DNA from: Aureispira anguillae | GTDB taxonomy: Bacteria; Bacteroidota; Bacteroidia; Chitinophagales; Saprospiraceae | DNA: 64,000 nt | Reading direction: 5' to 3' | NCBI RefSeq assembly: GCF_026000115.1 | Contig: NZ_AP026867.1 | Coordinates: 6,301,001-6,365,000 of the forward strand | Part shown: in pieces, positions 17,392-52,705 of the stretch | Layout: the number at the start of each line of letters is the position of its first letter | How positions within the stretch are numbered: the stretch's first letter is position 1 | Notes under the pieces: model-generated | What the model saw: only the letters and a program-made list of their open reading frames with translations | Database searches by the model: none | Told to the model about the DNA's origin: nothing | Position numbers and translations under genes: made by a program

Positions 17392-17421
17392 TATTACATG
17401 AGTGCTGCGTAGTTGATTATC
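17392..17421 (-). repeat. Intergenic mosaic repeat, copy F (fragment)
   Basis: Reads as the reverse complement of the first ~30 bases of copy C at 30783-30812. Over 27 aligned bases they differ at five positions, all transitions, and share the GTTGATTATC end exactly. It also shares 14 bases (ATTACATGAGTGCT) with copy E near 52340. The rest of the element is missing. Confidence 0.6.
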
Positions 17422-17628
17422 AGTAAGGTATGTTTTGTTAGTAAAGAATAAAGCGTTGATAATTAGCTAATCCACGAAGTATTATAGATTAAGTATACGA
17501 TAAAATTGATACTTTGTTTACTTTTTAAACTAAGTATTTTCAAAAAAAGTTCAAACTCATTTATTTTATTTCAAAAGAACACCCCTCTGTATTTTTTTTA
17601 AATAGCATAAAGAGTAAAGCTTCAATTT

Positions 17629-17660
17629 TTTGATTAAGAATTTTTTAGACCCTATCTTTG
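17629..17660 (+). promoter_or_regulatory. Promoter of the WG-repeat gene
   Basis: TTTG (17629-17632), a 20-base spacer and TATCTTTG (17653-17660) match the Bacteroidota housekeeping promoter (TTTG / TAnnTTTG). The start codon is 59 bases downstream. Confidence 0.65.
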
Positions 17661-17719
17661 TGCCCGTTTTATGAATAAATATTCCCAATAGAAACAAATG
17701 CTTTTATAGCCAAAATATT

Positions 17720-19657
17720 ATGAAATTAAAACTAACGTATATTATAATTTTATTAGCCAATAGTTTGCTCTTGTTGGGGCAACGGTTATCTCCCCAATTA
17801 AAAATGGAAACCCGCATGAATCTTGGTGAAAAACATTATTTAATTCAAAATAAAATAAAGCAATGGGGGCTGTTTACGAAAGGTCATAAGGTTGTTATTG
17901 CTGCAAGTTATGATACTATTTTCCCATTGAATCGCACAAAGTTTGATGCTGAAACCTATGCTGTTGAATACACCCCTACCAGTTATGTGATTGGAGAAAA
18001 GGGAGAGCGCCAAACGCTATTGGATTTAAAAGGGAATGTTTGCCTAAAGGCTAATAATATAATGCCTAGATTAATGGGAGAGGTCGTTTTGATTCAAAAC
18101 GATAAAAAATGGGGACTTGCACAGACTTCAGGAAAAATACTAGTGCCTGCTACTTGTGCTAGGATCGAATGGTATGAAGATATATTGGCGCTTAATAATG
18201 ACAAGGGGTGGTTATTGTTTGATCCTATTGCTGGAGAATTAATAACAGATACAGGGTATGATACTTTAATAGAAGTCACCAATGAACGATATCCTAGTGC
18301 GAATAATTATTACTTATTAACCCAAAAAGATGGATTGTGGGGTGTGCTAAATGTAAAAGGAAAAGCTGTCGTTCCTGCTAAATACCAAACTATTAAACCA
18401 CTGTATGCCATTCGGCGACATTCCCCAAATAGACTTTGTTTTTTAGTAAAAAAAGAAAATAAATGGGGAATAATTACGACCAAGAATCGGTCCTTAGTCT
18501 CCATTCAATACGACACACTTAAGGTGAACCATGCCGATCAAGCATGCATTGTGTTTCTGAAAGGAGACAAGTGGGGGATTATAGATGCTCAGGGAAATGA
18601 AAAAATTAGCAATTGTACCGCAATCAAAGCACTAGGGAGGTTTGTTAATACCTATAAAATTTATAAAGAAAATAAAGTGGGTTTATGGTCGGGAGATAAA
18701 GGAATTCAGTTGCCTAGTGAATATGATCGTATTGTGGTTGGAAAACTGTTTTTTACTTGCGAAAAAGAAGGTGAAACGTTCTATGTTAATAAACAAAATA
18801 ACCAAGCCGTCAATTTACCAATACATGAGGATATCGATTATTTTTCTTATCAATTCTACAAAATTAAACAAAATAAATTGTGGGGCTTGATCGATTTAAA
18901 TGGGAAAGAAATTCTTGCTCCTAAATACGATTACATCAATAGTGGGACTTATAGCTCCAATCGTATTGTAGTTGTGAAGGGTGCTAGGTCTGGTCTAATT
19001 GATTCCATGGGTAGGGAATTGATTGAACCAACGTATGATGAGATTAGCCCAATTTATTTGAATCGTAGTAAATTATATTCACAAAGGCAATTTTTTGTAG
19101 TCGCTAGAGGGCTTAAAAAAGGAGTCTTAAATTATAATGGAAAGGAATTGTTGGCAGTAGATTATGACGAAATTCTTTATGATCGAAAGCGTTTTGATGG
19201 TTATTTTGAAGTCGTAAAAAAAGAAAAAAAGGGACTGCTAAAATGGGATGGAACGGTTCTTATTGCACCCCATTATGAGACTATTTCTGCATTAACGTTG
19301 GAGGATCGCCAGCAATCAAAAGATGGAATTTGGAAGGTTAAACAAAATGAAAAATATGGATTGCTTCAAATCCAACAGGACGTTTCCAATCCAATATTGC
19401 CTTTAGCTTATGAAACCATTGAACGGATTTATAGCGCTACTAGGTCTTTAAAATCTTATTTTATAGTTGGGAATAAAGGGAAATACGGTATTTATAACAC
19501 GGATAAACAAGTGTGGATTTTGCCAATAGTGTACACTGCTATTCAAACACATACAACGGATGGTAAGGAGTTAAGAGGGAATGACTCTTCATTTTTTCAG
19601 GTTGAACAAGGAAAACAGCAGCTTTTATTTGATTTAGAAGGAAATCTCTTTGAATAG
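17720..19657 (+). CDS. Exported WG-repeat protein (645 aa)
   Basis: A signal peptide (residues 1-20, LANSLLLLGQ) is followed by about ten WG-type repeats of ~50 residues along the whole chain. Each has a core such as KWGLFTKG, KWGLAQTSGKILVPATC, LWGVLNVKGKAVVPAKYQTI, KWGIITTKN, LWGLIDLNGKEILAPKYDYI and KYGLLQI. WG repeats form beta-rich repeat structures and are common in exported Bacteroidota proteins, with no established function. There is no T9SS sorting domain, so it is probably periplasmic. It has its own promoter and no clear operon partner. Confidence 0.85.
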   Translation: MKLKLTYIIILLANSLLLLGQRLSPQLKMETRMNLGEKHYLIQNKIKQWGLFTKGHKVVIAASYDTIFPLNRTKFDAETYAVEYTPTSYVIGEKGERQTLLDLKGNVCLKANNIMPRLMGEVVLIQNDKKWGLAQTSGKILVPATCARIEWYEDILALNNDKGWLLFDPIAGELITDTGYDTLIEVTNERYPSANNYYLLTQKDGLWGVLNVKGKAVVPAKYQTIKPLYAIRRHSPNRLCFLVKKENKWGIITTKNRSLVSIQYDTLKVNHADQACIVFLKGDKWGIIDAQGNEKISNCTAIKALGRFVNTYKIYKENKVGLWSGDKGIQLPSEYDRIVVGKLFFTCEKEGETFYVNKQNNQAVNLPIHEDIDYFSYQFYKIKQNKLWGLIDLNGKEILAPKYDYINSGTYSSNRIVVVKGARSGLIDSMGRELIEPTYDEISPIYLNRSKLYSQRQFFVVARGLKKGVLNYNGKELLAVDYDEILYDRKRFDGYFEVVKKEKKGLLKWDGTVLIAPHYETISALTLEDRQQSKDGIWKVKQNEKYGLLQIQQDVSNPILPLAYETIERIYSATRSLKSYFIVGNKGKYGIYNTDKQVWILPIVYTAIQTHTTDGKELRGNDSSFFQVEQGKQQLLFDLEGNLFE

Positions 19658-19692
19658 TAAATTGTTGATGAATAGAATTGTTGCTCAGGCAG

Positions 19693-19724
19693 TTTGATAG
19701 TATCACTATTATGCTGTATCTTTG
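19693..19724 (+). promoter_or_regulatory. Promoter of ygiQ
   Basis: TTTG (19693-19696), a 20-base spacer and TATCTTTG (19717-19724) give an exact match to the phylum promoter. The start codon is 41 bases downstream. Confidence 0.65.
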
Positions 19725-19765
19725 TGATTACCCTTAAGTAATAAACAGCATAAAAAAAAAGTCTA

Positions 19766-21721
19766 ATGCGAGATCAACATCAAATAACCGATTGGCTACC
19801 AACGACCAAAAAAGAAGTGGAGCGGAGAGGCTGGGAAGAACTGGATGTGATTCTTTTTAGTGGAGATGCCTATGTTGATCATCCTGCATTTGGTGCTGCT
19901 GTTATTGGTCGAATTATTGAAAGCATGGGCTTCAAAGTAGCTATCGTACCACAGCCCAATTGGCAAGATGATTTGCGGGATTTTAAAAAGTTGGGGACAC
20001 CAAGGTTATTTTTTGGTGTGACTTCTGGTTGCATGGACTCAATGGTTAACCATTATACGGCCAATCGAAGACGTCGTTCTACGGATGCCTATAGCCCAGG
20101 AGGAAAAAGCGGATTTAGACCAGATTATACCACTACCGTATATACTAAAATCTTAAAAGACCTTTTTCCTGATGTTCCTGTTATGATTGGAGGAATAGAA
20201 GCTTCTTTGCGACGTGTAACTCATTATGACTATTGGAAAGATGAGCTGCTACCAACTATCTTAGAGAGTTCAGGGGCGGATATTTTGGTCTATGGAATGG
20301 GAGAGCAACCGTTGAGGGATTTGGTGCATCTCATGGATAAGGGGGTGCCTTTTTCTTCGCTTAAAACGATTGCACAAACTGCTTTTTTGGTCGATAAGGG
20401 GCAGTTGCCCAAAAATAAAAACTGGAAGGATAAGGTTTTGAACTCCCATGAAGCTTGTTTGGAAGACAAAAAGAAATTTGCCTCTAATTTTAAATTCATA
20501 GAACAGGAGTCCAATAACCTAAATGCTAAACGTTTATTGCAAGATGTAGGAGATAAAACCTTAGTGATAAACCCTCCTTATCGAACGATGACGGAGCTTG
20601 AAATAGATGCTTCCTTTGATTTACCTTATACTAGAAAACCACATCCCAAATACAAAAAGCGTGGAGCAATTCCTGCTTACGAAATGATTAAGTTTTCGGT
20701 CAATATGCATAGAGGCTGTTTTGGGGGCTGTAGTTTTTGTACGATTTCTGCGCATCAGGGCAAGTTTATAGCAAGTCGCTCTAAAGAATCGATTCTAAAA
20801 GAAGTAGACCAAATTACACAAGACGAAAGTTTTAAGGGCTATATCAGTGACTTAGGCGGTCCTTCTGCCAATATGTATCGAATGAAAGGAAAAGTGCAAT
20901 CTATTTGTGATAAATGCATTAGCCCATCTTGTATATCGCCATCTATTTGTAGCAATTTGGATACTTCCCATGCTCCAATGACTGAAATTTACCGAGCGGT
21001 AGATGAGCATCCCGATGTAAAAAAGGCGTTTGTCGGTTCTGGTATTCGCTATGATATGTTGGTGCCCGAATTTAATAAAAATGCAGATGTAGCTGATTTG
21101 GAGGAGTATTCTGAACAATTGATAACGAGACATGTTTCTGGACGTCTAAAAGTAGCACCAGAGCATACCTCTGACAATGTGCTAAAAGTAATGCGCAAAC
21201 CTTCTTTTAAACATTTTCATTCTTTTAAGAAAATGTTTGATCGAATCAATGCCAAACACGATTTAAAGCAACAGTTGATTCCTTATTTCATTTCTAGTCA
21301 TCCCGCTTGTGAGTTAGAGGATATGGCAAACTTAGCCGCAGAAACTAAGGATATGGGGTTCCAATTGGAACAGGTGCAAGATTTTACACCTACACCAATG
21401 ACCGTAGCTACTGTGATTTATTATTCGGGGTATCATCCATATACTTTACAACCCACTTTTACCCCCAAGGCAGAGGATGAGAAAAAAGATCAACATCGTT
21501 TCTTCTTTTGGTACAAACACGAGAATCATCGCTGGATTAAGAAGGTGTTAAATAAGGCAAATCGCCAAGATTTAATCAATCAACTATTGGTTTCTGCTGC
21601 GCCCAAAGGTGCTGTTCCTAAAGCAAAAAAAACAAGCCAAGGACGGCGAAATAAGTCGTACAAAAAGGATTATCACAAAAACAAAAAGCGCAGAAAGCCT
21701 AATTTTAAGAAAAAGACTTAG
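19766..21721 (+). CDS. YgiQ-family radical SAM protein (651 aa)
   Basis: Radical SAM enzyme of the YgiQ/UPF0313 family, whose reaction is not established. The N-terminal domain (WLPTTKKEVERRGWEELDVILFSGDAYVDHPAFG, then GGIEASLRRVTHYDYW) has the B12-binding-like fold typical of the family. The [4Fe-4S] cluster motif CFGGCSFC lies in NMHRGCFGGCSFCTISAHQG at about residue 315. Further family blocks include CISPSCISPSICSNLD, a second Cys-rich segment, and VAPEHTSDNVLKVMRKP. The C-terminal ~40 residues are an Arg/Lys-rich tail that may bind nucleic acid. Length and start agree with relatives. Confidence 0.9.
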   Translation: MRDQHQITDWLPTTKKEVERRGWEELDVILFSGDAYVDHPAFGAAVIGRIIESMGFKVAIVPQPNWQDDLRDFKKLGTPRLFFGVTSGCMDSMVNHYTANRRRRSTDAYSPGGKSGFRPDYTTTVYTKILKDLFPDVPVMIGGIEASLRRVTHYDYWKDELLPTILESSGADILVYGMGEQPLRDLVHLMDKGVPFSSLKTIAQTAFLVDKGQLPKNKNWKDKVLNSHEACLEDKKKFASNFKFIEQESNNLNAKRLLQDVGDKTLVINPPYRTMTELEIDASFDLPYTRKPHPKYKKRGAIPAYEMIKFSVNMHRGCFGGCSFCTISAHQGKFIASRSKESILKEVDQITQDESFKGYISDLGGPSANMYRMKGKVQSICDKCISPSCISPSICSNLDTSHAPMTEIYRAVDEHPDVKKAFVGSGIRYDMLVPEFNKNADVADLEEYSEQLITRHVSGRLKVAPEHTSDNVLKVMRKPSFKHFHSFKKMFDRINAKHDLKQQLIPYFISSHPACELEDMANLAAETKDMGFQLEQVQDFTPTPMTVATVIYYSGYHPYTLQPTFTPKAEDEKKDQHRFFFWYKHENHRWIKKVLNKANRQDLINQLLVSAAPKGAVPKAKKTSQGRRNKSYKKDYHKNKKRRKPNFKKKT

Positions 21722-21755
21722 TGGCAAAGGATCATATTGGTAACGTTTATTTTCA

Positions 21756-22130
21756 ATGAAAAAAATAATCCTATTTAATTTCCTTATTACTACGATTTGG
21801 ATCCCTTATTCGATGCAACGTTGGTTAGAGATGCCCTATGCTGAAGGTGTGCTGGAAGATGTTCTTATCTTTGGAACTTTTTTTATGGGTACAGCTTTGG
21901 CCTTCAGTAATGTTTTGTTGCTATTGAGCCAGAAATGGACTAAATATAAACGACAGTATCTAAAGCTAACGATGATTTTTTTGGCGGGACTCTTTGTTTT
22001 TCCAATATATTCAGGCCTTGTTGTAGGATATGAAGGGCAAGCAATTTGGATGGATATAGTTGTGTTAGGTTGCTTATATATGAATCTCTCGCTGTCGAAT
22101 AAGGAATACCAATTGTTAATTCATCAATGA
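21756..22130 (+). CDS. Small membrane protein (124 aa) upstream of a Crp/Fnr regulator
   Basis: It has four hydrophobic segments (near residues 3-18, 30-48, 63-82 and 90-110) and no recognised family. It starts 34 bases after ygiQ. The next gene, a Crp/Fnr-type regulator, starts 7 bases after its stop, so the pair is probably co-transcribed and may be functionally linked. Confidence 0.65.
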   Translation: MKKIILFNFLITTIWIPYSMQRWLEMPYAEGVLEDVLIFGTFFMGTALAFSNVLLLLSQKWTKYKRQYLKLTMIFLAGLFVFPIYSGLVVGYEGQAIWMDIVVLGCLYMNLSLSNKEYQLLIHQ

Positions 22131-22137
22131 TTTTCTT

Positions 22138-22728
22138 TTGGAAAACGCACTCAATACATATCAAAAATCGGTGTTAGCACTTTGCCCTAAATTAACAAAA
22201 GAAGAATGGGCTTATCTAGAAAAAGGCTTAACGATTAAAGATTTGTCTCCTAAATCTTTTTTTATTCAAGCAGGAGATGTTCAACGACAAATTGGTTTTA
22301 TTGTTAAGGGCTTGTTTAGAGCTTATTATGTTGATTATAAGGGAAATGAAATTACGATCCGTTTTAATAAAGAAGGAGCTTATGTGACCGATTATGTTAC
22401 ATTTATAACACAACAACCTAGCAATTACTATTTTCAATGCCTTGAACCTTCCCAATTGATAACACTTTCTTATCAACATATACAGGAGGGCTATGATCTT
22501 TATCGGGGAATAGAACGATATGGGCGTTTGATTGCAGAAGAAGTACTAAAAAGTCAGCAGAAACGAATTGATAGTTTTCAATTTTATAATGCAGAACAGC
22601 GTTATTTGCAATTTGTGGAAGAAAACAGAGGGCTATTCAACCGCATTTCATTAACACATCTTGCTTCTTATTTAGGTGTAGAGCGCCCTTCTCTTAGCCG
22701 AATTCGAAAAAAAATATCTAGAGAATAA
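22138..22728 (+). CDS. Crp/Fnr-family transcriptional regulator (196 aa)
   Basis: The N-terminal cyclic-nucleotide-binding-like beta barrel (residues 30-120) includes FIQAGDVQRQIGFIVKGLFRAYYVDYKGNEITIRF. The C-terminal winged helix contains ISLTHLASYLGVERPSLSRIRKKI, a clear helix-turn-helix. There are no Fe-S cysteines, so it is not an Fnr-type oxygen sensor, and the classical cAMP-binding Arg/Ser cluster is not evident. Translation probably starts at TTG (22138), because the family N-terminus begins there and no ATG is nearby. Bacteroidota carry many such regulators with unknown ligands. Confidence 0.85.
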   Translation: MENALNTYQKSVLALCPKLTKEEWAYLEKGLTIKDLSPKSFFIQAGDVQRQIGFIVKGLFRAYYVDYKGNEITIRFNKEGAYVTDYVTFITQQPSNYYFQCLEPSQLITLSYQHIQEGYDLYRGIERYGRLIAEEVLKSQQKRIDSFQFYNAEQRYLQFVEENRGLFNRISLTHLASYLGVERPSLSRIRKKISRE

Positions 22729-22839
22729 GTCATTTAGATAGAACAGTACCTTCATTATGTAACAAATGTTACAGGTAATGTTGATAAAGATAATTCAACT
22801 TTGTAGGGTGATTAATTTTTGCCACTAAATACAATACCA

Positions 22840-23715: not shown

Positions 23716-23807
23716 GAAAAATAGCTTTTGAAGGCCAATGATACACAAGTTCATCTTATAGAAATAATAATTAAGTACATCTACTCTTTATTCTTAGTCT
23801 TGAATAG

Positions 23808-25408: not shown

Positions 25409-25430
25409 GCTAGGAAATATGATAAATAAA

Positions 25431-26468: not shown

Positions 26469-26875
26469 AATTATCGTTTATTTTATTGAATAGTTTATAC
26501 TACATGGTGTAATATTAATCGTTTGGTAATTTTTTGCTTTTTCCTTTATAGCTTTAGCTACAAACTAGCGCAGTTAGTACGCTATCACTTGTGAGGTCGC
26601 AAGCTCTGTTCGGGTTTTTAACGGAGTAATGTTTCATTTAAATAATGAAAATTTACTTAAAACAGTTCAAAAGGGTTGCCAAATAACGACAAAGTGCCAT
26701 TTTTACAGGTCAAACAAAGGTTAAGGCTCGAATATAAACTTGTAATAAAATGTTAAAGAGAACCGATTGCACTGAAAATTGTTGGGTATAGGAGCTGCTA
26801 ATAATTGTTAAAAAATATCTTATTTTGTATTGAATGATGTTTTGTTATGCTCAAAAGACATCTAAAAAGAGGACT
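26469..26875. other. 407-base divergent intergenic region holding repeat copy A
   Basis: No gene seen. The left half contains mosaic repeat copy A (26529-26631). The right half is plain AT-rich sequence leading to the Crp/Fnr gene, with no convincing promoter motif. Confidence 0.6.
26529..26631 (+). repeat. Intergenic mosaic repeat, copy A
   Basis: Bases 26538-26584 are identical at 46 of 47 positions to 52142-52188 (copy E). The right end, GTTCGGGTTTT then TAACGGAGTAATG, matches the right end of copy D at 43139-43162. The left ACTCCGTTA end is absent. The core is richer in G+C than the surrounding sequence and contains no ORF. Confidence 0.8.
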
Positions 26876-27454: not shown

Positions 27455-27462
27455 TTATTCAG

Positions 27463-27493
27463 CATTACTCCGTTAAAAAATCAACGGAGTATG
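27463..27493. repeat. Intergenic mosaic repeat, copy B (ends only)
   Basis: The two element ends are fused: CATTACTCCGTTA, a short A-rich loop, then AACGGAGTATG. This gives a 9-bp hairpin (27466-27474 / 27483-27491) starting 8 bases after the regulator's stop codon. It has no T-tract. It looks like a minimal or internally deleted copy. Confidence 0.65.
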
Positions 27494-27614
27494 AATTCAG
27501 ATTACTTCTTGAAAAAGTTCAAGGAAAGAGGTTAGGAGATCAATTAGTTTTGTCTTTATGTGAAATTATTTTGAGCAATTTCAGTATTAAAAAAGATAAA
27601 CTAAATGATATATA

Positions 27615-30600
27615 ATGGAGAAAACGATGCTAAAGAGGACTAAAATCCCTCAAGACCAATCCCTTCCTTTTTTAGGCAATCTACTCGAATTGGATAAGAG
27701 CGAAGGAATGATCTCAAACTTTGAAAGAATGGCTGAAAAACATGGCGAAATTTATCGCATGGACTTTCCTTCTAGTACCGTTCTTATTGTTAGTTCTCAT
27801 CGCCTAATCAATGAATTGTGTGATGAAACAAGGTTTAGAAAAAAATTAACAACCCCTCTTGAAATTATTCGAGATTTTGCAAAAGATGGGTTGTTTACGG
27901 CCTATGGAGATGAGCCGAATTGGCATAAGGCACATCGTATTTTGACGCCGACCTTTGGTCCAATGTCCATTAGAGCTATGTTCCCTCAAATGCTCGATAT
28001 TGCAGAACAATTGATGCTAAAATGGGAACGAATGGGAGACAATGCTGTCTTTGATGTCCCTGATGATATGACACGGCTTACCTTGGATACGATTGCTTTG
28101 TGTGCCTTTAATTATCGTTTTAATAGTTTTTATAGAGATGAGATGCACCCTTTTGTACATGCCATGGTAGAAGGGCTTGTTGAAGCAGGAGAAAAAGCAA
28201 AACGATTGCCATTGCAAGATAATGTGATGTTTTGGGTTCGAAAAAAGTACGAAAGTAATATTGAATACATGAACCGAGTAGCAGATACGATTATTCAAAA
28301 GCGGAAGGGAGATGGTCTTGAAGAGGCTCCAGATGATTTGCTCAATAAAATGCTTGTTGGTAAAGATCCTGTTACTGGAGAAAAGTTGACGGATGAAAAT
28401 ATTCGTTATCAGATGATTACATTTCTAATCGCAGGGCATGAAACAACCAGTGGTTTGCTTTCTTTTGCTTTGTACTATTTGAGTAAGCATCCTGAGATTT
28501 TAGCAAAAGCACAAGCTGAAGTAGACGAGGTTTTGGGTAATAAAAGACCAAAGGTAGAGGATATTAATCAATTGTCGTATATCAGCCAAATTCTAAAAGA
28601 AACCTTGAGATTGAGTCCTACGGCTCCTGTATTTGCTGTAGAACCAATAGAAGATACGATGTTGGGGGATAAATATGCCGTAAAAAAAGGCGAAATTATT
28701 TTAGTCCTACTTCCTGCGTTGCATAAAGATCCATTGGTTTGGGGTGAAGATGCAGCATTGTTTAAGCCTGCACGTTTCTCAACAGAAAATTTCAAAAAAT
28801 TGCCTCCCAATGCTTGGAAACCCTTTGGCAATGGAGCTCGTGCTTGTATTGGCCGACCATTTGCCATACAAGAAGCTATTTTGGTATTGTCTATGATTTT
28901 GCAGCGCTTTGAAATTGAGTCGGATGATCCTAACTATGAACTCAAAATAAAGGAAACACTGACCCTAAAACCAGAAAATTTTTATCTTCGGGCAAAACGA
29001 AGAAATCGCATTATTGAAGACGAAACCCCATCTGTTGAAAGGAAACAATCCAGTAGCCAAGATGAGCCATTAGAAGAAGTAGAGAACCCTCAACTCGTTG
29101 TTTTGTACGGCTCTAATAGCGGCAGTTCTAGGAATTTTGCTTTGCAATTGGTGCATAATGTGACAAAAAAAGGATTTACTGCCAAAATGGGAGAGTTGGA
29201 TGCTTATGTAGATCAAATTCCCAAAGATAGTAAGGTGGTGATAATAACTGCTTCTTATGAAGGACAGCCAACGAATGATGCGAAAAACTTTGTACAATGG
29301 TTGAAAAAAAATAGCACCATAGATTTAAAGGGCTTAGCGTATACGGTCTTTGGTTGTGGTAATAAAGATTGGGCAAATACCTATCAAGCTATTCCTATCT
29401 TTTTGGATCAACGGTTACAAGAACTAGGCGCAACACGATTTTTTGAGAGGGGTGAAGCCGATGCAAAAGCAGATTTTTTGGGCAATTTTGAAAGATGGGA
29501 AGAAGCGCTTTTAAATGTTTTAGAACAGACGTTAGAACACTCAAAAAATCCTAATAATAGGGGGCAACAATTGGCGGTTGAAATGATTAAAACACCCTCC
29601 AAGCTACAGCACCTTAAGCAAAAACAGTTGAAAGAAGGACGAATCCTAGCAAATAAGGAATTGGTTGATATGACCCATGAACTTGGACGTTCTAAGCGGC
29701 ACATTGAAATTCAATTAACGAATGGAATGACTTACCAAGCGGGCGATTATTTGACAATTTTACCCTTTAATACTACCGATAATGTAGCAAGAGTTTTAAA
29801 GCACTTTTTAATAGCTCCAGACACAAAAATTATTCTAAAAGATCAATCTCAAACTGCTCTATTGCCTTTGGGTTATCCTGTTGCTGTTGGAGAAGTGCTA
29901 ACACATTATGTGGAATTGGGGCAGCCTGTGACCCGTCAGCAGTTAGAAACTTTGGTAGATAAAACGCCTTGCCCCCCTGAACGAATGGAATTGGAAAAAT
30001 GGCTACAAAAGGATATTTACACCAAAGAAGTTTTTGAGAAAAGGGTTAGCCTTATTGATGTCCTTCAGCGAATAGGTTCTTGTAGTCTAACGTTTGATGA
30101 ATTTTTGGGGATGTTGCCAGCCATGAAACCTCGTCAATATTCCATTTCTTCTTCTCCTGTTGTTGATCCTAGCATCTGTAGTTTGACCGTTGCCGTTGTA
30201 GCTGCTCCTGCTTGGTGTGGTCAAGGCAATTATCAAGGAGTTGCCTCCAATTATTTGGCTTCTCTAAATATTGGGGATGCTGTATGGATAGCCATTACGC
30301 CTTCCAAACAGGCATTCCACTTGCCTGAGAATATTCAAACGCCTGTTATTATGGTTGGTGCTGGTTCAGGGATTGCACCCTTCAGAGGATTTATACAAGA
30401 ACGAGCAGAACAAATTGCTGCCGAAAAGATGCTCTTATTTTTTGGTTGCGATCATCCTGATGTAGATTTTTTGTATAAAGAGGAGCTTATGGTTTGGCAA
30501 GAACGAGGTATTGTAGATGTCTGTCCTGCTTATACTTATCAAGTTGATAATGGTATAAAATATGTTCAGGATCGAGTATGGAAAGAGAAAGACCAAATCT

Positions 30601-30782
30601 GGGAAACCTTAAAAGAAGGCGCTGTGGTTTATGTTTGTGGTGATGGCAAATATATGGCTCCTGCGGTGAGGGCTACCTTTGTTCAAATTTATAAAGAACA
30701 GATGAGTGCGAAGCAGGAGGAGGCAGAAAAGTGGATGGATCAATTAATTGAAACGGGACAATATGTTTTGGATACCTTTTGA
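27615..30782 (+). CDS. Self-sufficient cytochrome P450/NADPH-P450 reductase fusion (CYP102/BM3-like, 1055 aa)
   Basis: Fused monooxygenase and reductase that hydroxylates fatty-acid-like substrates in characterised relatives. The P450 half (1-470) has AGHETTS in helix I (273-279), ETLR (329-332) and the haem loop FGNGARACIGRPFA with ligand Cys411. Phe94 in DGLFTAY corresponds to BM3 Phe87. The FMN domain starts near 492 (VVLYGSNSGSSRNFA). The FAD/NADPH domain follows with PRQYSISSSP, GAGSGIAPFRGFIQER and CGDGKYMAP. The chain ends in Phe where BM3 has the flavin-stacking Trp. BM3 Arg47 and Tyr51, which anchor the fatty-acid carboxylate, align with Ser54 and Ile58, so the substrate may differ. 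No membrane anchor. Confidence 0.93.
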   Translation: MEKTMLKRTKIPQDQSLPFLGNLLELDKSEGMISNFERMAEKHGEIYRMDFPSSTVLIVSSHRLINELCDETRFRKKLTTPLEIIRDFAKDGLFTAYGDEPNWHKAHRILTPTFGPMSIRAMFPQMLDIAEQLMLKWERMGDNAVFDVPDDMTRLTLDTIALCAFNYRFNSFYRDEMHPFVHAMVEGLVEAGEKAKRLPLQDNVMFWVRKKYESNIEYMNRVADTIIQKRKGDGLEEAPDDLLNKMLVGKDPVTGEKLTDENIRYQMITFLIAGHETTSGLLSFALYYLSKHPEILAKAQAEVDEVLGNKRPKVEDINQLSYISQILKETLRLSPTAPVFAVEPIEDTMLGDKYAVKKGEIILVLLPALHKDPLVWGEDAALFKPARFSTENFKKLPPNAWKPFGNGARACIGRPFAIQEAILVLSMILQRFEIESDDPNYELKIKETLTLKPENFYLRAKRRNRIIEDETPSVERKQSSSQDEPLEEVENPQLVVLYGSNSGSSRNFALQLVHNVTKKGFTAKMGELDAYVDQIPKDSKVVIITASYEGQPTNDAKNFVQWLKKNSTIDLKGLAYTVFGCGNKDWANTYQAIPIFLDQRLQELGATRFFERGEADAKADFLGNFERWEEALLNVLEQTLEHSKNPNNRGQQLAVEMIKTPSKLQHLKQKQLKEGRILANKELVDMTHELGRSKRHIEIQLTNGMTYQAGDYLTILPFNTTDNVARVLKHFLIAPDTKIILKDQSQTALLPLGYPVAVGEVLTHYVELGQPVTRQQLETLVDKTPCPPERMELEKWLQKDIYTKEVFEKRVSLIDVLQRIGSCSLTFDEFLGMLPAMKPRQYSISSSPVVDPSICSLTVAVVAAPAWCGQGNYQGVASNYLASLNIGDAVWIAITPSKQAFHLPENIQTPVIMVGAGSGIAPFRGFIQERAEQIAAEKMLLFFGCDHPDVDFLYKEELMVWQERGIVDVCPAYTYQVDNGIKYVQDRVWKEKDQIWETLKEGAVVYVCGDGKYMAPAVRATFVQIYKEQMSAKQEEAEKWMDQLIETGQYVLDTF

Positions 30783-30861
30783 TAATCAACTGCGTAGTGC
30801 TCATGTGATAATCGAATACGATTAGCTACGCTGCTACTACGTGGTTTTTAACGGAGTAATG
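30783..30861 (+). repeat. Intergenic mosaic repeat, copy C (full length, 79 bases)
   Basis: It begins immediately after the P450 stop codon and runs from GATAATCAAC to TAACGGAGTAATG. Its reverse complement aligns over the whole length with copy G at 37615-37685. Twenty bases at 30800-30819 match 52331-52350 (copy E) in the opposite orientation with one mismatch. It contains the small hairpin AATCG-AATA-CGATT. Confidence 0.8.
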
Positions 30862-37614: not shown

Positions 37615-37685
37615 CATTAGTCCGTTTGAAAACACGTAGCTAATTGTGTTCGGTTACTTTATGTGTCCTACACCGTTGATTATTA
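37615..37685 (-). repeat. Intergenic mosaic repeat, copy G (full length, diverged)
   Basis: Aligns end to end with the reverse complement of copy C. The shared landmarks in order are CATTA-TCCGTT, CGTAGCTAAT, GT-TTCG-TTA, CTAC and GTTGATTAT. The internal hairpin AATTG-TGTT-CGGTT keeps pairing through G:U wobbles where copy C has Watson-Crick pairs. It sits 2 bases after the flavin reductase stop codon. Confidence 0.65.
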
Positions 37686-43006: not shown

Positions 43007-43050
43007 AACTGCCAAATTGTTGATTAAGCGTCAATGGTTTGGCAGTTTTT
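43007..43050 (+). terminator. Terminator after the outer-membrane protein gene
   Basis: AACTGCCAAA (43007-43016) pairs with TTTGGCAGTT (43038-43047) and is followed by a T-run. It is 25 bases past the stop codon and immediately before repeat copy D. Confidence 0.75.
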
Positions 43051-43056
43051 AATTTT

Positions 43057-43162
43057 AATACTCCGTTAATTAGCTAGTGCGCTAGCGCTTATGAGCTCCC
43101 TGAGGTCGGTTCGTTACACTCGTGAGCCAGCAAGCTGGGTTCGGGTTTTCAACGGAGTAATG
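43057..43162 (+). repeat. Intergenic mosaic repeat, copy D (both ends present)
   Basis: It begins AATACTCCGTTA and ends AACGGAGTAATG, giving terminal inverted repeats of 9 bp. The last 24 bases match copy A at 26608-26631 with one difference. The interior contains short palindromes (GCTAGTGCGCTAGC). It is noticeably richer in G+C than flanking DNA and has no ORF. Confidence 0.8.
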
Positions 43163-43256
43163 TAATTTTAGACAAAATTTTAACATTTTTTCTTACACCA
43201 AGATGGAGCATCTTATCATCTAGTTGGTTGTAGTTCGTTCCCCACCAACTATAAAC

Positions 43257-46829: not shown

Positions 46830-49625
46830 ATGACCAACAAACATTTACTCGCCCTTCTTACTGCTGCATTATTTTGGACGGCATGCAATACTAATAGTAG
46901 GATCATTACTGTTGATTATACGGTTGAAAATCGAAATTTGGATACCGTTGCGGTAACGGCATCTAGAGTATCAAGCTTTGAACGACCTGTATACAATCCT
47001 AGTGCAACACGTACAAATGATTTGTTGCATACCAAATTGGATGTTTCTTTTGATTGGGAAAGACAGTATCTAAATGGAAAAGCTGTTTTGGAGCTAAAAC
47101 CTATTTTTAAGCCAACCAATCAAGTGCGTTTAGATGCCAAAGGTTTTGATATTCACAAAGTCGCCTTAATGGGGACTAGTGGACAAGTCCCATTGCAATA
47201 TAAATATGAAAACAATAAGGATCTGTATATTACCTTAGATCGAGTTTATAAAGCCGATGAGGTTTATCGTTTGTACATTACTTATACCGCAAAACCTAAT
47301 GAATTGCCAATAGGGGGGAGTGATGCAATTACTTCTGACAAAGGTTTGTATTTTATCAACCCATTAGGAAAAGAAAAGGGGAAACCCCAACAAATTTGGA
47401 CACAGGGAGAAACAGAGTCTAGCTCTTGTTGGTTTCCTACGATTGACCGCCCCAATGAGCGTTGTACCCAAGAAATTTACATGACGGTAGATAAAAAGTA
47501 TAAAACCTTATCCAATGGTCGCCTGAATAATTCAATTGAAAATTCAGATGGAACACGTACCGATCATTGGAAAATGGATTTGCCACATGCTCCTTATTTG
47601 TTTGCTATGGTTGTGGGCGATTTTGCGGTAGTTACGGAAGAGTGGAACGGTAGATTGTTGGAGTACTTTGTAGAACCAAAGTATGAAAAAGATGCGAAGG
47701 CCATCTATAAAAATACTCCTGAAATGTTGACTTTCTTTTCAAATAAATTAGGCGTAACTTATCCTTGGGCTAAATATTCGCAGGCTGTTGTTCGTGATTA
47801 TGTATCGGGTGCCATGGAAAATACTACAGCGGTTATTTTTGGTGATTTTGTTCAAATGACTACCCGTGAATTGATTGACAATGGCGACTTAAACGAGTCC
47901 ATTGTTGCGCATGAAATGATGCATCATTGGTTTGGTGATTTGGTCACTTGCGAAAGCTGGGCTAATTTGCCGCTGAACGAGTCTTTTGCTAATTATAGCG
48001 AATACCTTTGGTTTGAGCATAAATACGGTAGAGATGCTGCTGATTATATTCGAAAAAATGAAATTGATGGATATATGAATCAAGCAATTATAGGCGCAGA
48101 TAAGCATCCTCTAATTCATTATGGCTATGCAGATAAAGAGGATATGTTTGATGCTCATAGTTATAATAAAGGAGGGGCGATTTTGCACATGCTGCGTTAT
48201 TATGTGGGGGATGATGCCTTTTTTGCAAGTTTGAAAAAATACCTAGAAGACAACAAATACCAAGCAGCAGAAGTACATAATTTGCGATTGGCTTTTGAGA
48301 AAGTGACAGGAGAGGACTTAAATTGGTTTTTTAATCAATGGTTTTTTACTGCTGGGCATCCTGATTTGGAGGTAACCAAGACTTATGATGCGGTAACTCG
48401 CACGCTAAACGTTACGGTGAAACAAACACAAGATTACAAAGAAAGCACGGTATTTATGTTGCCTTTTGCGATTGATGTTTATACTTCTAAAGGGGGCAAA
48501 GCTCAACGTACTAATGTTGTAATGACAGAGCAGGAACAAACGTTTTCTATTTATACAGGTGGAGAGCCTGTTTGGGTAGGAGTGGATGCTGAACGTGTCA
48601 TCTTAGGCAAGAGAAAATACAAACAAACAAAGGAGGAATTAATCAGCCAGTTTCGTTTGAGCAAGCGTTTTCAAGATCGTTTTGAGTCTATCAAAGAATT
48701 GAGATACGCACAAGACAAAAATCCTGATGTTCAACGATTATTTAAAGATGCCTTAAATGATCCTTTTTGGGCGATTAGAGAAAGAGCAATTGATGCCATT
48801 GACATTGATCCAAGTGATGAATTGTTGATTAGTAAAATCATTGAAATTGCTAAAAATGACCCTCGTTCACATGTACGACGTGCAGCGATGGAGCGTATTG
48901 GTGGTTTAGAGAATTCGAAGTATTTAGAGGTTGCTAAGCAGGCTGTGGATAAGGAGCAATCTTATATTGTGGTTTCAGCAGCTTTACAAGCGATTTATCG
49001 TACCAATCCTACTATGGGAACGCAGTATGCTGAGCGCTTAAAGGGGGCTGAAAATGTTTCTATCTTATTGGGAATTGCTGCAATATTTGAAAAAACAGGG
49101 GATAGAAAACACCTTCCTTTTTATGAAAATAATTGGAACAAAACAGATAATTATGCTCGCTTTACATTCTTTAACAGCTATGCTACTTTGTTAGAAAATA
49201 CAAAGGATGAAGCTTTGGTTAGAGAAAAAACGACCTATCTGAAAGGGGTTGGAACCAATAAAGATGTTTCTCAATGGGGGCGTTATGCTGCTTCTAATGC
49301 GCTCAAAAAATTACGAGATGACTTTTTTACAGAAGCAGAGCGAGAATGTAAGAAAATTGAAATGCTTCTTAAGGAGCTAAAAGGACAAGATACAAAGGAT
49401 GCTATTGCCAAACTTCAGACGCTATTAAATGATAAGTCAAAATCAAACTACGAAGATGCTGTGGATGCTATTCAACGTCTAAAAGGCAATGAAATAGGAG
49501 GCATATTAGATAAGGTGGATGCTTTTTCGAAAGTAAATACTTATGATATTATTGCAGATACCATTGAAGAAATTAAGGCTTGGGAAACTGATCCTACTTT
49601 GTTAAAGCTATATCGTTCTTGGTAA
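46830..49625 (+). CDS. M1-family aminopeptidase lipoprotein with HEAT-like C-terminus (931 aa)
   Basis: Zinc aminopeptidase that removes N-terminal residues from peptides. The N-terminus is a lipoprotein signal (LLALLTAALFWTAC, Cys19), so it is tethered in the envelope. The domain order is the M1 beta-domain (40-250), then the catalytic domain with the substrate motif GAMENTT and the zinc site HEMMH (His361, Glu362, His365) plus Glu384 in NLPLNESFANY. The region ~600-931 consists of HEAT-like helical repeats (DPFWAIRERAIDAIDIDPSDELLISKIIEIAKNDPRSHVRRAAMERIG) in place of the classical C-terminal arch. Likely role: peptide nutrition after extracellular proteolysis. Confidence 0.93.
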   Translation: MTNKHLLALLTAALFWTACNTNSRIITVDYTVENRNLDTVAVTASRVSSFERPVYNPSATRTNDLLHTKLDVSFDWERQYLNGKAVLELKPIFKPTNQVRLDAKGFDIHKVALMGTSGQVPLQYKYENNKDLYITLDRVYKADEVYRLYITYTAKPNELPIGGSDAITSDKGLYFINPLGKEKGKPQQIWTQGETESSSCWFPTIDRPNERCTQEIYMTVDKKYKTLSNGRLNNSIENSDGTRTDHWKMDLPHAPYLFAMVVGDFAVVTEEWNGRLLEYFVEPKYEKDAKAIYKNTPEMLTFFSNKLGVTYPWAKYSQAVVRDYVSGAMENTTAVIFGDFVQMTTRELIDNGDLNESIVAHEMMHHWFGDLVTCESWANLPLNESFANYSEYLWFEHKYGRDAADYIRKNEIDGYMNQAIIGADKHPLIHYGYADKEDMFDAHSYNKGGAILHMLRYYVGDDAFFASLKKYLEDNKYQAAEVHNLRLAFEKVTGEDLNWFFNQWFFTAGHPDLEVTKTYDAVTRTLNVTVKQTQDYKESTVFMLPFAIDVYTSKGGKAQRTNVVMTEQEQTFSIYTGGEPVWVGVDAERVILGKRKYKQTKEELISQFRLSKRFQDRFESIKELRYAQDKNPDVQRLFKDALNDPFWAIRERAIDAIDIDPSDELLISKIIEIAKNDPRSHVRRAAMERIGGLENSKYLEVAKQAVDKEQSYIVVSAALQAIYRTNPTMGTQYAERLKGAENVSILLGIAAIFEKTGDRKHLPFYENNWNKTDNYARFTFFNSYATLLENTKDEALVREKTTYLKGVGTNKDVSQWGRYAASNALKKLRDDFFTEAERECKKIEMLLKELKGQDTKDAIAKLQTLLNDKSKSNYEDAVDAIQRLKGNEIGGILDKVDAFSKVNTYDIIADTIEEIKAWETDPTLLKLYRSW

Positions 49626-49650
49626 ACTTAGGTTGCCTTGCCGCTAACAG

Positions 49651-49684
49651 GAGCCATCTCTTAGATTAAGGGATGGCTTCTTTT
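49651..49684 (+). terminator. Terminator between the M1 peptidase and the convergent DUF2279 gene
   Basis: GCCATCTCTTA / TAAGGGATGGC stem (one G:U pair, 3-base loop), followed by a T-rich stretch. It is 26 bases past the peptidase stop. Confidence 0.75.
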
Positions 49685-49707
49685 ATCATTACTCTTATTA
49701 TAGCAAT

Positions 49708-50718
49708 TTAAAAATAAAATGGATGAAATTTAACAGCTCCCAGTGTATTGATTTCTAAGGTAGGAAAGGGGACTTTAAAAATATTCAGTATTCCAAAGAT
49801 TGTTTTTAGCCATTTGTGTTTGGTGGGAATTCGCTCAAAGTCAATGTCTAAGGATAGAAAAAATTGACTGTGCCGTTGATAGTGGGCAGGAGCCGTAAAT
49901 GAATTCCCTGCCTTATCTTCCCAAGTATTACTTTCTGCTCCAAATACATTTTCTATTCCATAACCTACTGCTACATTGATCCAAGGAGGGGGAAAACCAT
50001 GTGGTCTGTTTTTTAGAAAGGAGGCAATATTGACCGAAAGCCAAATCGTTTGCCCATTGTATTCTTTGAATAGTAATTCAGGAATGCTATTCCCAAAAAG
50101 TGCCGTTGTACGGGCGTGAATGGAGGAGGTTGCATTGCTATTGGTGGCTTGGATGGGAGTTGTAGAATATGATGGGCGGTGCGTTGACATTTTTAAGCGA
50201 AATCGCTGCTCTTGCCACAATAATTCTTGCCCTAAGTACAAGCTAGACCCCAATAAATTAAAGCCCATATCTCCCCAAGAAAAGCCCCATTTTTCAGAAA
50301 AACCATCCATGATTTCTAGTGTTGTTTGGAACAACAACCCCGTTCCAAAACCAACCCAAGCGGCTTGATTTCTAGAAAGCCCTGCCCAACGATAAAGATC
50401 ACCAGCCCATTTACTTTCGAAATAACTGGTCATAGCGTGACCAAACTTATCCATTTGCCGCCAGCCATTCCAATCGTCAAAAGAATGAAATTTACTTCTG
50501 GGGTAATTCGCATACCAAGCTTGGTTTAATCCTATGGTAACCGCACTATAACCCGCTACTCCAATGGAAGTAATTGTCCAGAATCTAGCCTTGTTAAAAC
50601 TTGGAGCGGTGTCAAAAAAAGTCAATTTTGGGGACGCTAATAAGGATAAACTATCGGTTTGGGCACTGGATGGAAAAGTAAGCAATAGAAGCAATAAGCA
50701 GTAAAGTAGTTTTTTCAT
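49708..50718 (-). CDS. YfiM/DUF2279-family exported protein (336 aa)
   Basis: Signal peptide at 1-20 (KLLYCLLLLLLTFPSSAQ). The DUF2279 core reads MDKFGHAMTSYFESKWAGDLYRWAGLSRNQAAWVGFGTGLLFQTTLEIMDGFSEKWGFSWGDMGFNLLGSSLYLGQE. The family is thought to comprise envelope-associated proteins of unknown role. The C-terminal half looks like beta strands of an outer-membrane domain (WINVAVGYGIENVFG, QFFLSLDIDFERIP, VKFHPFYF). The start is placed at the ATG at 50718, where the signal peptide begins. The 105-base in-frame extension upstream runs over the terminator of the neighbouring gene and is rejected. Confidence 0.8.
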   Translation of the reverse strand: MKKLLYCLLLLLLTFPSSAQTDSLSLLASPKLTFFDTAPSFNKARFWTITSIGVAGYSAVTIGLNQAWYANYPRSKFHSFDDWNGWRQMDKFGHAMTSYFESKWAGDLYRWAGLSRNQAAWVGFGTGLLFQTTLEIMDGFSEKWGFSWGDMGFNLLGSSLYLGQELLWQEQRFRLKMSTHRPSYSTTPIQATNSNATSSIHARTTALFGNSIPELLFKEYNGQTIWLSVNIASFLKNRPHGFPPPWINVAVGYGIENVFGAESNTWEDKAGNSFTAPAHYQRHSQFFLSLDIDFERIPTKHKWLKTIFGILNIFKVPFPTLEINTLGAVKFHPFYF

Positions 50719-50803
50719 AATCTTGATACTAGATGGTTCTAGGCGGCAAGTTTCAAAAGTACAATAAACAGCCTGCTTTTCAAAAGCCAATAACAACCTT
50801 AAT

Positions 50804-50855
50804 AAAAAGAAAAAGTAGAACAACCATTTTACCTGCTGTCCTACTTTTTCTTTTT
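50804..50855 (-). terminator. Terminator of the 321-residue secreted protein gene
   Basis: 15-bp perfect arms at 50804-50818 and 50841-50855 (AAAAAGAAAAAGTAG and complement) with a 22-base loop, ending in T-rich sequence on the minus strand. It is 19 bases past the stop at 50874. Confidence 0.7.
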
Positions 50856-50873
50856 TATAAAACTAAAAATAAA

Positions 50874-51839
50874 TTATTCTATAATGCTTTTGCCTCGACG
50901 CATTTCATAATACAAAATACTTTGTCTGTTTTTTTCATCTTGCAATTCAATAGCTTTTAGAAATGATTTAACCCCACGATGCATAAGAATAAAGAAGTTT
51001 TCCTGTCGAACTTCATCTCTGACTTCTACTTCAAGAACAGTTCTGTCAGCATCTCGATTTTTATATTGGATTTCTTTCATTTTTTTGACCAATAATTTTC
51101 TGCGAGTACCATCTTTTTCATTAAAAATAATGTACTGAAGCAATTTCTCTTTTTTGCCTTTTATCACCGTTTCTTCTTCAAAACGAATGTCGATGTCATC
51201 GGTAGCATGAATGCGAGATATTTTGCGAAAATCAAGATTGGATTGTTGATCAAAAGATAAAAAAGGATATAAAACCTTTCCCCAGAATTCATCTAGGGTT
51301 TTAGCGTCAAAATCTTCTTGATGTGTAAAGAATTTGCCATCTTCTAATAGCTGTTCTTTGGAGGCTCGTTCAATCATATAGGTGTGCTCAGGATCGGCCA
51401 TGCTTGGGCGATATTTGATCATATCCACAAGACTAATTCCATCGATATAGAATTTTAAATAGCCGATTAGCTCTCTATTTTCAGGATCAACTAATTTAAG
51501 TTCATAACCATAGACCGTTTTGCTGATGCTGGATATACGCAAACGATAGGGTTTGTCATCGGTAGGAGGGTCAACAATTCCTGCTGGGGTATATCTGGCT
51601 CGCTCATGAATGATTACATTGGATCTTGAAATCACAAAAGAAACAATACCTGGTTGAATAGGGTCAGGATAATGTGCTGTACTCATTTTCCCTTGAGAAG
51701 GAATGAAGGTGTAGCCATAAAAATCGGATTCTTTTATAAACTGATGATCTTCAGATAAGGTATAGCGAGTAGTATCACTTTGTGCCCAAAATAATACAGG
51801 GACTAAATTCGCTAATATCAGTATAATAAATTGTTTCAT
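50874..51839 (-). CDS. Exported protein of unknown function (321 aa)
   Basis: Signal peptide at 1-19 (LANLVPVLFWAQ). The mature part is a mix of strands and charged helices (VSFVISRSNVIIHERARYTPAG, RISSISKTVYGYELKLVDPENRELIGYLKFYIDG, FEEETVIKGKKEKLLQYIIFNEKDGTRRKLLVKKMKEI). No T9SS domain, lipobox or known motif. It appears to be a single-gene unit between a terminator and a long repeat-containing spacer. Confidence 0.65.
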   Translation of the reverse strand: MKQFIILILANLVPVLFWAQSDTTRYTLSEDHQFIKESDFYGYTFIPSQGKMSTAHYPDPIQPGIVSFVISRSNVIIHERARYTPAGIVDPPTDDKPYRLRISSISKTVYGYELKLVDPENRELIGYLKFYIDGISLVDMIKYRPSMADPEHTYMIERASKEQLLEDGKFFTHQEDFDAKTLDEFWGKVLYPFLSFDQQSNLDFRKISRIHATDDIDIRFEEETVIKGKKEKLLQYIIFNEKDGTRRKLLVKKMKEIQYKNRDADRTVLEVEVRDEVRQENFFILMHRGVKSFLKAIELQDEKNRQSILYYEMRRGKSIIE

Positions 51840-52705
51840 AATCTATTTAGTATTGTTTTAGAAACTGCTATAAGAGATCTTTAAAAGCAAAACATTATCT
51901 TTAGGGAAACACAAAAATAAAAATTTATTATTGTATTCTTTAAAAATAGGGAGATTAAGCCCCTAATGTTCTGACTAAAACAAGTTTAAAAATGGTAGTT
52001 TTGTAATTTTTTGTGTTTATTGGATGAATAAAGTTTTATAGAGGGGAATAAATGGTTAAGGGAGAATTTTTTTTGCCTTATAATAAATTAATACTCCGTT
52101 ATTTTTTTGCTTTTTTACAAAAAAAGCAAAAAAAACATTGTTTTTTCCTTTATAGCTTTAGCTATAAACTAGCGCAGTTAGTACGCTAACGGGCTTTACC
52201 TTTACCTGCGGTGCTACTACGTGGTGGTACATTGTACCAACCCACGCAGTTAGCTCCCTGCGGTCGTGAGCGTTTGACTTATAGTTCGTTATCACTCGTG
52301 AGCTCGCAGGGCTCGGTTCGCTTTGCTCATGTATTCGATTATTACATGAGTGCTATACTGTCTTATTGATAAAAAATTGTGCAACACTATTGGTATATTA
52401 CCCCAAGCTGCTCGTTTTATTAGTAGCTTGCACTCAGAGTATTACTAATGTTCTTATCTTGTGGAGCTTATTTTGCTCCTGTTTATACTTAGTTTGGACT
52501 GGATTGTTCAAACAATTTTAATAAGATATACGCAATATTACTGATCGGGTATACATTAATTGGGAGAATGTTGCAAAAAAAATTATCCTCGTCTTATCTA
52601 TGGCAAGGCTTATGCCATTTTAAATGAATTAAAGGTAGAATTGCATTTTATCTGTTATTCTTGTTGTTTAATGACTAGTATCTAATTGGATAACACTATC
52701 CTATA
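51840..52705. other. 866-base divergent intergenic region holding repeat copy E
   Basis: The longest gene-free stretch in the window. It contains mosaic repeat copy E (52090-52350), including a long A/T hairpin. The sides are plain AT-rich sequence. No ORF in either strand resembles a gene, and no RNA gene is recognised. Confidence 0.6.
52090..52350 (+). repeat. Intergenic mosaic repeat, copy E (long composite)
   Basis: It opens with ATACTCCGTTA, then an A/T hairpin (TTTTTTTGCTTTTTT, 52102-52116, with its complement). Next is the 47-base block 52142-52188 shared with copy A, a CTACTACGTGG segment shared with copy C, a run of short palindromes and TCACTCGTGAG. It ends with 52331-52350, which matches copy C in inverse orientation. 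The TAACGGAGTAATG end is absent. It looks like several modules joined together. Confidence 0.75.

Follow-up and report, generated by a model that had tools for sequence, protein, structure and literature searches.

Dispersed gene-less repeats of Aureispira, very probably a MITE family with mosaic hairpin interiors

Features of the locus

The DNA analysed here, called the window, is a stretch of 64,000 nucleotides of an Aureispira genome (G000:C1:6301001-6365000; genome of 7.79 Mb in three contigs). It holds seven copies or fragments of one repeat family (Table 1), the weakest of which is the degenerate copy G. An earlier note on this DNA had placed copies B and D correctly; their extents have been corrected, both being complete elements. 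The 24-bp core of copy B is found exactly at four places in the genome, B included. Copy C spans the stop codon of a P450-fusion ORF that ends at 30782. The P450 fusion itself is a widespread protein. Rfam gave no match at gathering score within the window.

The copies share blocks of sequence. The block common to A and E extends to a 51-nt match at 96% identity, and the one common to C and E, in opposite orientation as first described, to 25 nt at 88%. For A and D, a shared right end stood up as part of a 47-nt match at 85%, with one mismatch in its last 25 nt. In addition, C matches F over 34 nt in inverted orientation (82%), and E matches F directly over 33 nt (76%).

Table 1. Copies and target-site duplications (TSD) in the window, empty/filled locus pairs of genomes G003 and G008, and inner insertions
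Feature	Position	Strand	Remark
Copy D, complete 107-bp element TAATACTCCGTT...AACGGAGTAATG	43056..43162	+	both ends exact
Copy D, left TSD TAATTT	43050..43055	.	direct repeat
Copy D, right TSD TAATTT	43163..43168	.	direct repeat
Copy B, complete minimal 32-bp element, ends plus GATTTTTT	27463..27494	-	TSD on both sides
Copy B, TSD ATTCAG	27457..27462	.	direct repeat
Copy B, TSD ATTCAG	27495..27500	.	direct repeat
Copy A, right end exact, left end decayed	26516..26631	+	left boundary by eye
Copy C, right end exact, left part lost	30776..30861	+	left boundary by eye
Copy E, left end TAATACTCCGTTA, long mosaic interior, right end not seen	52089..52354	+	
Copy F, lone module fragment without ends	17390..17422	-	inverted match to copy C
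Copy G, degenerate copy or remnant, end-like CATTAGTCCGTTTGA	37615..37685	.	weak, by eye
Empty/filled pair L366/L375			TSD TTTGTT
Empty/filled pair L365/L374			TSD ATTTTA
Empty/filled pair L370/L379			TSD ATAAAA
Empty/filled pair L368/L377			TSD AAAAAT
Inner insertion TTAT[...]TTAT			26 nt
Inner insertion TAATT[...]TAATT			25 nt
Inner insertion GTTCG[...]GTTCG			21 nt

Occurrence, ends and target-site duplications

The right-end motif AACGGAGTAAT occurs 96 times in the G000 genome, against 8 times for its letters read backwards, and the left-end motif TACTCCGTTRATT 85 times, against none for the backward control. When both motifs are merged within 400 nt, 128 distinct loci result, about 17 per Mb. 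The seven stretches picked out in the earlier note are thereby confirmed, at their places, as parts of one dispersed family; its estimate of hundreds of copies genome-wide is too high for exact ends and was only approached. With copy A alone as DNA query, the G000 genome was hit 47 times at E values up to 10.

The ends are 12-bp imperfect inverted repeats, TAATACTCCGTT and, on the other strand, CATTACTCCGTT. Searched up to a limit of 700 nt, left and right ends form 52 pairs in G000, 24-367 nt apart when counted from ACTCCGTT to AACGGAGT inclusive. TAAT and AATG stand outside the paired ends, and the direct repeat lies beyond them. Target-site duplications were tested on 47 pairs, the five of the 52 without AAT after the right end having been dropped beforehand. 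A perfect 6-bp duplication flanks 25 of the 47 (mean 0.57, maximum 5 in 500 shuffles). With 5-7 bp allowed the number rises to 37, while the other 10 show no perfect duplication of 5-7 bp in the register tested. The same test gave 37 perfect 6-mers out of 59 in G003 (shuffle mean 0.82, maximum 5) and 24 out of 44 in G008 (mean 0.67, maximum 4).

The paired copies of 24-367 nt have no coding capacity, and no ORF reaching 100 aa encloses any of the 47; the earlier description of the copies as gene-free and without ORFs holds to this extent, copy C being the exception at the stop codon. Their G+C content averages 0.350 against 0.288 in the 100+100 nt of flanking DNA and is the higher of the two in 36 of 47 copies, as had been noticed in the window.

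The minimal copies bear target-site duplications (copy B, and two more by eye), and for the majority of the nine in G003 there is an identical counterpart in G008. That 32-bp copies transpose as such was not accepted, as a longer copy that lost the stretch between its GATTTTTT repeats would yield the same product. End pairs 0.5-4.5 kb apart were also rejected: they enclose ordinary genes where checked, or lack, by eye, a matching target-site duplication.

Distribution and recent transposition

The end survey took in 60 genomes, nine of them of the genus Aureispira. The right end is numerous in five of these nine (96 in G000, 132 in G001, 94 in G003, 67 in G006 and 104 in G008) and occurs not at all or once in the other four (G002, G004, G005 and G007); in none of the 51 genomes from other genera does the count exceed 6, which is within the range of the backward controls. 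The distribution of the element within the genus is patchy.

Identity between genomes G003 and G008 is 98.1-99.7% across most stretches that are collinear, with a mean over all alignments of 97.7% that is lowered by a tandem repeat. Nine candidate G008-specific sites or stretches were picked from the end spacing and compared on both sides, the search running one way, for G008 only. Four are empty/filled pairs, filled in G008 and empty in G003, with exact 6-bp target-site duplications (Table 1); between congeners about 99% identical, they show recent transposition. Among the remaining candidates, L372/L381 differ by another kind of indel, L373/L382 by a tandem change or recombination and L371/L380 by rearrangement, and the loci L367 and L369 gave no alignment to the guessed partner locus. 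L365 and L374 also differ by an internal deletion through ACTAATAC.

Sister end-types occur at the G003 and G008 loci examined. The first sister end-type (F2), TAGTAGTTCGTTG...CAACGAACTATTG, forms 15 pairs, 14 of them with a 5-7-bp duplication, and a further type, TAGTAGTTAGC...GCTAACTATTG, forms 2 pairs with duplications of 5 and 6 bp; orthologues may have been counted twice in both sets. Among plasmid records, a relative of the element turned up only in NZ_CP133672.1 of Aureispira sp. CCB-E, where a copy of type F2 with the duplication TTCTAG lies between the rep and parA genes. Gene-less family copies are also present at the transposase loci L390 and L396 (F2) and L393 (F3).

Folding and compensatory changes

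As a single strand, the typical 146-nt element can fold into an end stem that closes two hairpins; one copy folded as DNA gave -29.9 kcal/mol (z -7.8). Covariation was scored on a structure written from the sequence, with 20 core copies aligned out of 42 found (nine from G000 and eleven from G003/G008, chosen for diversity). In stem 2, both partners have changed in 9 of 19 pairs, and 95.5% of cells are paired. Over all helices 37 cells are changed on both sides, compared with 12.9 in shuffles and 1-5 when the structure is slid; the covariation score reaches 0.145, against 0.066. Counted as pairs with changes on both sides there is no clear excess (10 against 7.6 expected, a value reached in 40 of 500 shuffles), nor is there any in further pair types (16 against 16.3 in shuffles). 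In hairpin 1, which is 86.3% paired, two pairs fail in most copies. The end stem is invariant in the 20 copies, partly by construction, because the copies were chosen by these ends. The compensatory changes in stem 2 suggest that a folded state, single-stranded or cruciform, may matter for the spread of the element, or that the two arms may be repaired against each other.

The apical loop of hairpin 2

In hairpin 2, the 36-nt loop apparently diverges far more quickly than its surroundings. It was compared in one genome pair, G003 and the draft G008, in the 17 of 29 orthologous copies where the loop was recognisable in both. Differences occur at 31 of 602 loop positions (5.15%; 27 transitions, 4 transversions), against 16 of 2179 (0.73%) in the rest of the same cores, 0.67% in the 400-nt flanks of the same copies and 63 of 7696 (0.82%; 39 transitions, 24 transversions) in the intergenic flank baseline. 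The ratio of loop to intergenic divergence is 6.3 (Poisson P 3e-15, or 1e-11 minus the two most different pairs), and the transition bias of the loop relative to intergenic DNA has P 0.016.

The minority letters among 49 distinct loops make up 284 transitions and 26 transversions, counts that shared ancestry inflates. The changes are coordinated by strand: G/T letters, counted loop by loop, have a variance of 14.7, compared with 3.9 (maximum 6.65) in 2000 column shuffles. The number of G+C letters per loop shows no such excess (2.97 against 3.92 in shuffles). Thirteen G000 loops, a set that mixes two subfamilies, gave a G/T variance of 11.6 against 4.2. Where orthologous loops differ by at least two substitutions, six of the nine pairs change one way only and three are mixed, as judged by eye.

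Short-tract gene conversion between copies, and not new mutation, could make orthologous loops differ, an explanation that we regard as plausible without being probable. The loop of L346 is identical to that of L475, yet the orthologue L469 differs at four sites and in length, and modules, too, move between copies. Replacement of whole loops should, however, bring in about nine differences (the mean pairwise difference among the 49 loops is 8.8), whereas 12 of the 17 pairs differ by 1-4 substitutions, four by none and one by six. The rest of the core also speaks against conversion, showing no excess divergence even though 12 distinct cores differ there by 4.6%.

The loop may instead be a built-in hypermutable cassette that changes at about six times the intergenic rate, mostly by transitions and often in one-way strand bursts (A to G and C to T, or the reverse), and the elements would then be mobile, self-diversifying hairpins. 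This reading is tentative and somewhat unlikely; it is kept below a verdict because ancestry inflates the counts, G008 is a draft and gene conversion mimics part of the pattern. The mechanisms behind both loop change and module exchange are ones that we infer. For the loop, fast change in place, mostly by transitions, would most plausibly follow from its exposure as a single strand or its repeated resynthesis. Copying or damage of one exposed strand would yield one-way bursts of transitions, and G-T mispairing by an error-prone polymerase in hairpin repair, or an RNA step, is a candidate process.

Mosaic interior

The interiors consist of recurring hairpin modules of about 20 bp, and the interchangeability of modules proposed in the earlier note is borne out by this recurrence and by the gain or loss of one module in orthologous copies. 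This 20-nt module, which lies in the loop of hairpin 1, is present or absent at two G003/G008 copies, once each way, and the polymorphism probably reflects exchange between copies. Module differences are also seen between L360 and L319. Recombination or gene conversion between copies, together with template switching at hairpins, is the most likely process by which interiors would gain, lose and exchange modules of about 20 nt.

It is rather unlikely that the inner modules are themselves mobile micro-elements that enter the MITE, and one another, with 4-6-bp duplications of their own, in the manner of mitochondrial GC clusters. Such mobility would fit the lone module F in the window and the presence or absence of the 20-nt module, and in a filled/empty comparison within the set 3 of 101 rows give inserts of 21-26 nt with 4-5-nt repeats on either side (Table 1). 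Many of the other rows are, however, overlaps of similar modules or tandem-like, the two clean module polymorphisms show by eye a 2-bp duplication only, and an identical module at an identical position is explained by gene conversion.

Transposase searches and a candidate partner

Among 32 loci with Y1 or DDE_Tnp_1 matches that were examined, one, L396 in G008, holds an insertion sequence with matching ends. It is 1365 bp long (L396:1282-2646), has the target-site duplication TTATGC and carries a 429-aa ORF between ends that read CAATACTTCGTTGA on both sides (longer form CAATACTTCGTTGAAGTATTAA). Its outer 14 bases agree with the family ends at 12 (TAATACTCCGTTGA), 12 (CATTACTCCGTTGA), 11 (TAGTAGTTCGTTGA) and 13 (CAATAGTTCGTTGA) positions; by chance, 45 of 200,000 random positions in element-holding loci match any of the four ends at 13 or more. 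The protein matches PF01609 over the cut-off. Among NCBIfam models it scores best with IS701 (2.8e-26) and IS4 (2.1e-12), in both cases under the curated cut-off, which leaves the family name unsettled.

Relatives of the L396 protein were found in 42 named-plasmid records, and five were taken for end comparison. Two from Persicobacter (protein 38-39% identical) have the ends CAATACTCCGTAGA/CAATACTCCGTAAA and duplications of 7 and 6 bp, one from Bacteroides finegoldii (36%) has CAATACTTCGGTAA/CAATAGTTCGTTAA and 7 bp, and one from Segatella copri (35%) has CAATACTCTGTTAA/CAATAGTTCGTTAA and 6 bp; ISDra7 of Deinococcus (31%) has no such ends at the locus tested. Since the L396 insertion sequence and its Bacteroidota relatives combine similar ends with 6-7-bp duplications, the ends and duplication length of the repeat family are close to those of this group. 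The L396 insertion sequence is likely the partner of the family, judged by ends that are a close, though not exact, match.

The partner was found in G008 only and was not detected in G000, the genome of the window. No relative of its protein was present at the loci tested from G000, G003 and G006, and carrier G001 has no DDE_Tnp_1 match. Present mobility in G000 is therefore unaccounted for, as none of the carriers G000, G001 and G006, as tested, has the partner. Draft assemblies may lack insertion sequences. The four new insertions in the partner-bearing G008 are no evidence of a difference between genomes, because G008-specific sites alone were examined.

Across the nine congeners, none of the families RAYT, DDE_Tnp_1, rve and DDE_Tnp_1_3 is common to all five carriers. 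Beside unpaired ends, 134 of 140 listed ORFs (six left out) gave no transposase among the best 25 of 159 Pfam, 25 of 58 PHROGs and 25 of 291 NCBIfam families. Other insertion sequence groups were rejected as partner, having other ends or no clear ends (52 + 15 loci, best two terminus candidates each); L412 holds one lone family end with a mismatch. A phage search found no match to the element and no viral contigs. The statement in the earlier note that no transposase or known family is apparent still holds for the window and for G000, but congener G008 has an insertion sequence with matching ends and duplication length.

Class of the repeat family

The dispersed Aureispira repeats are very probably a gene-less MITE family with mosaic interiors, presumably moved by a DDE transposase encoded elsewhere. 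The class rests on the inverted ends, the target-site duplications, the lack of genes, the presence/absence between genomes and the likeness to insertion sequence ends. Movement in trans would be provided by the L396-type group, whose nearest models are IS701 and IS4: on the reading from sequence, the transposase would bind the inverted ends of the element and cut the target with a stagger of mostly 6 bp (5-7), and the element would be inserted into A+T-rich intergenic DNA. Mosaics of hairpin modules, a compensatory internal stem and a fast-diverging loop are unusual for a MITE.

It is improbable that the host retains the elements for a function of its own, as transcribed terminators or regulatory RNAs. 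The compensatory stem changes would suit such a role, as would the gene context of the 47 paired copies (33 between tandem genes, 12 between divergent genes, 1 between convergent genes and 1 at a locus edge), for which there is no genome-wide expectation to compare. Sequences kept for function are hard to reconcile, however, with presence and absence between nearly identical genomes, with a right end that is missing or single in four of nine congeners, and with the lack of any Rfam match in the window.

That the repeats are REP or REPIN elements moved by a RAYT (Y1) transposase we consider very improbable. REP and REPIN elements are likewise small, palindromic, intergenic and high in copy number, and the earlier note had likened the copies to REP/MITE-type elements; the MITE part of that comparison is upheld by the target-site duplications and empty sites and the REP part is not. 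REP and REPIN sequences are not known to duplicate their target site on moving, whereas true inverted ends with 6-bp duplications point to a different chemistry, and a DDE insertion sequence bears such ends. No PF01797 match was found in G000, G001, G003 or G008, carriers with 94-132 exact right ends each; carrier G006 and non-carrier G004 have one match apiece. For the four carriers that lack a match, a RAYT mobiliser is thus ruled out, short of a Y1 enzyme of very divergent sequence. Of the two kinds of enzyme that the earlier note had thought might carry the same ends, RAYT-like or other, it is a DDE transposase that was found, with ends similar and not identical.

Decayed genes or chance matches, for which no support was found, are scarcely credible given the excess of exact ends over the backward controls and the target-site duplications; a decayed gene or a lack of further copies was what the earlier note had named as speaking against its reading.

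Comparison with known systems

The family is mobile, with insertions that are recent and an insertion sequence as its likely partner, and in the near-identical G003 and G008 insertion can be seen together with loop change and module exchange. One close likeness is to the L396 insertion sequence group itself, which resembles the family in its ends (11-13 of 14 bases) and 6-bp duplication and differs in encoding a 429-aa transposase. The small dispersed repeats (SDR) of Nostoc are about 20-27 nt long and lodged in other repeats; unlike these, the Aureispira modules sit within elements that have defined ends and target-site duplications.

REPINs with RAYT are, in the part of the account considered here, also short palindromic intergenic DNA (PMC3116915), but the Aureispira family has inverted ends with duplications, and the Y1 transposase is absent from four of five carriers. 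Bacterial MITEs are described, in the section consulted, as typically having 10-20 copies and a size of 50-1000 bp (PMC4596501), against 128 loci and a shortest complete copy of 32 bp here. BrickBuilt and MITE239 of Porphyromonas gingivalis, a member of the same phylum, are according to that section also short and gene-less, with inverted ends, target-site duplications, many copies and presence/absence between strains (PMC4596501). The mosaic hairpin interior and the fast-changing loop set the Aureispira family apart from bacterial MITEs. TIMEs, as far as the excerpt describes them, are Tn3-derived, non-autonomous elements with predicted secondary structure and mosaic derivatives; they differ in their 38-bp ends, a 5-bp duplication (TIME-RES), a length near 262 bp and a proposed Tn3-family partner (PMC4133298).

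The literature search returned no paper joining Aureispira, repeats and transposable elements. If true, loop hypermutation would link hairpin formation to a strand-specific mutational process. The GC clusters of yeast mitochondria are, in the portion of the source considered, short and palindromic, with rapid substitution, merger and shuffling of units and short direct repeats at their flanks (PMC4478555). Unlike the Aureispira family they are organellar, and in that portion they are flanked by AG or ACT without 6-bp duplications (PMC4478555). Mosaic, shuffling mobile hairpins have thus been described in yeast mitochondria (PMC4478555), and a bacterial case would permit genetics.

Change of ends at one insertion

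The loci L341 of the congener G008 and L332 of the congener G003 carry one insertion, with the common target-site duplication TGATGTT (read by eye). The element is 118 nt long at L332, with ends TAGTAGTTCGTTG, vs only a short hairpin, AGTTAGCGCAGCTAACT, at the orthologous insertion of L341. The inner end sequence itself is altered between the two genomes.

Eight sites of the window's own genome (G000:C1) show a single end, ATTACTCCGTTRAT(T), in which the motif of the left end and that of the right end run into each other; these are possibly remnants left once the rest of the element was lost. The insertion sequence L396:1282-2646 of G008, the likely partner of the family, has near-palindromic outer ends AATACTTCGTTGAAGTATT, so that a small hairpin of its own could form at each end.

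Features and their coordinates
Feature	Position	Strand	Remarks
P450-flavodoxin-FAD-NAD domain fusion ORF, 1055 aa	window 27615-30782	+	domains: cytochrome P450, flavodoxin, FAD, NAD
Single-end ATTACTCCGTTRAT(T) sites	G000:C1 126361, 3138243, 3729783, 5186677, 5898493, 6617167, 6654283, 7310778
Tandem array, period ~153 nt	L371 about 10500-12070; L380 about 3000-9400		alignment offsets

Other genome differences and gene context

Despite ~99% identity in collinear stretches, the whole genomes of G003 and G008 hold 42 and 3 DDE_Tnp_1 matches, respectively, a difference that may stem either from the spread of insertion sequences or from copies collapsed in the draft assembly of G008. A long tandem array also differs between them, as judged from alignment offsets.

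Copy C of the window holds the stop codon of the cytochrome P450 fusion ORF. Among the classified copies of G000, only 1 of 46 lies between convergent genes, which may be a deficit relative to the genome. Another family copy is located at 3001-3145 of the Aureispira plasmid NZ_CP133672.1, flanked by replication initiator and ParA genes; this plasmid is a possible vehicle for the element between strains.
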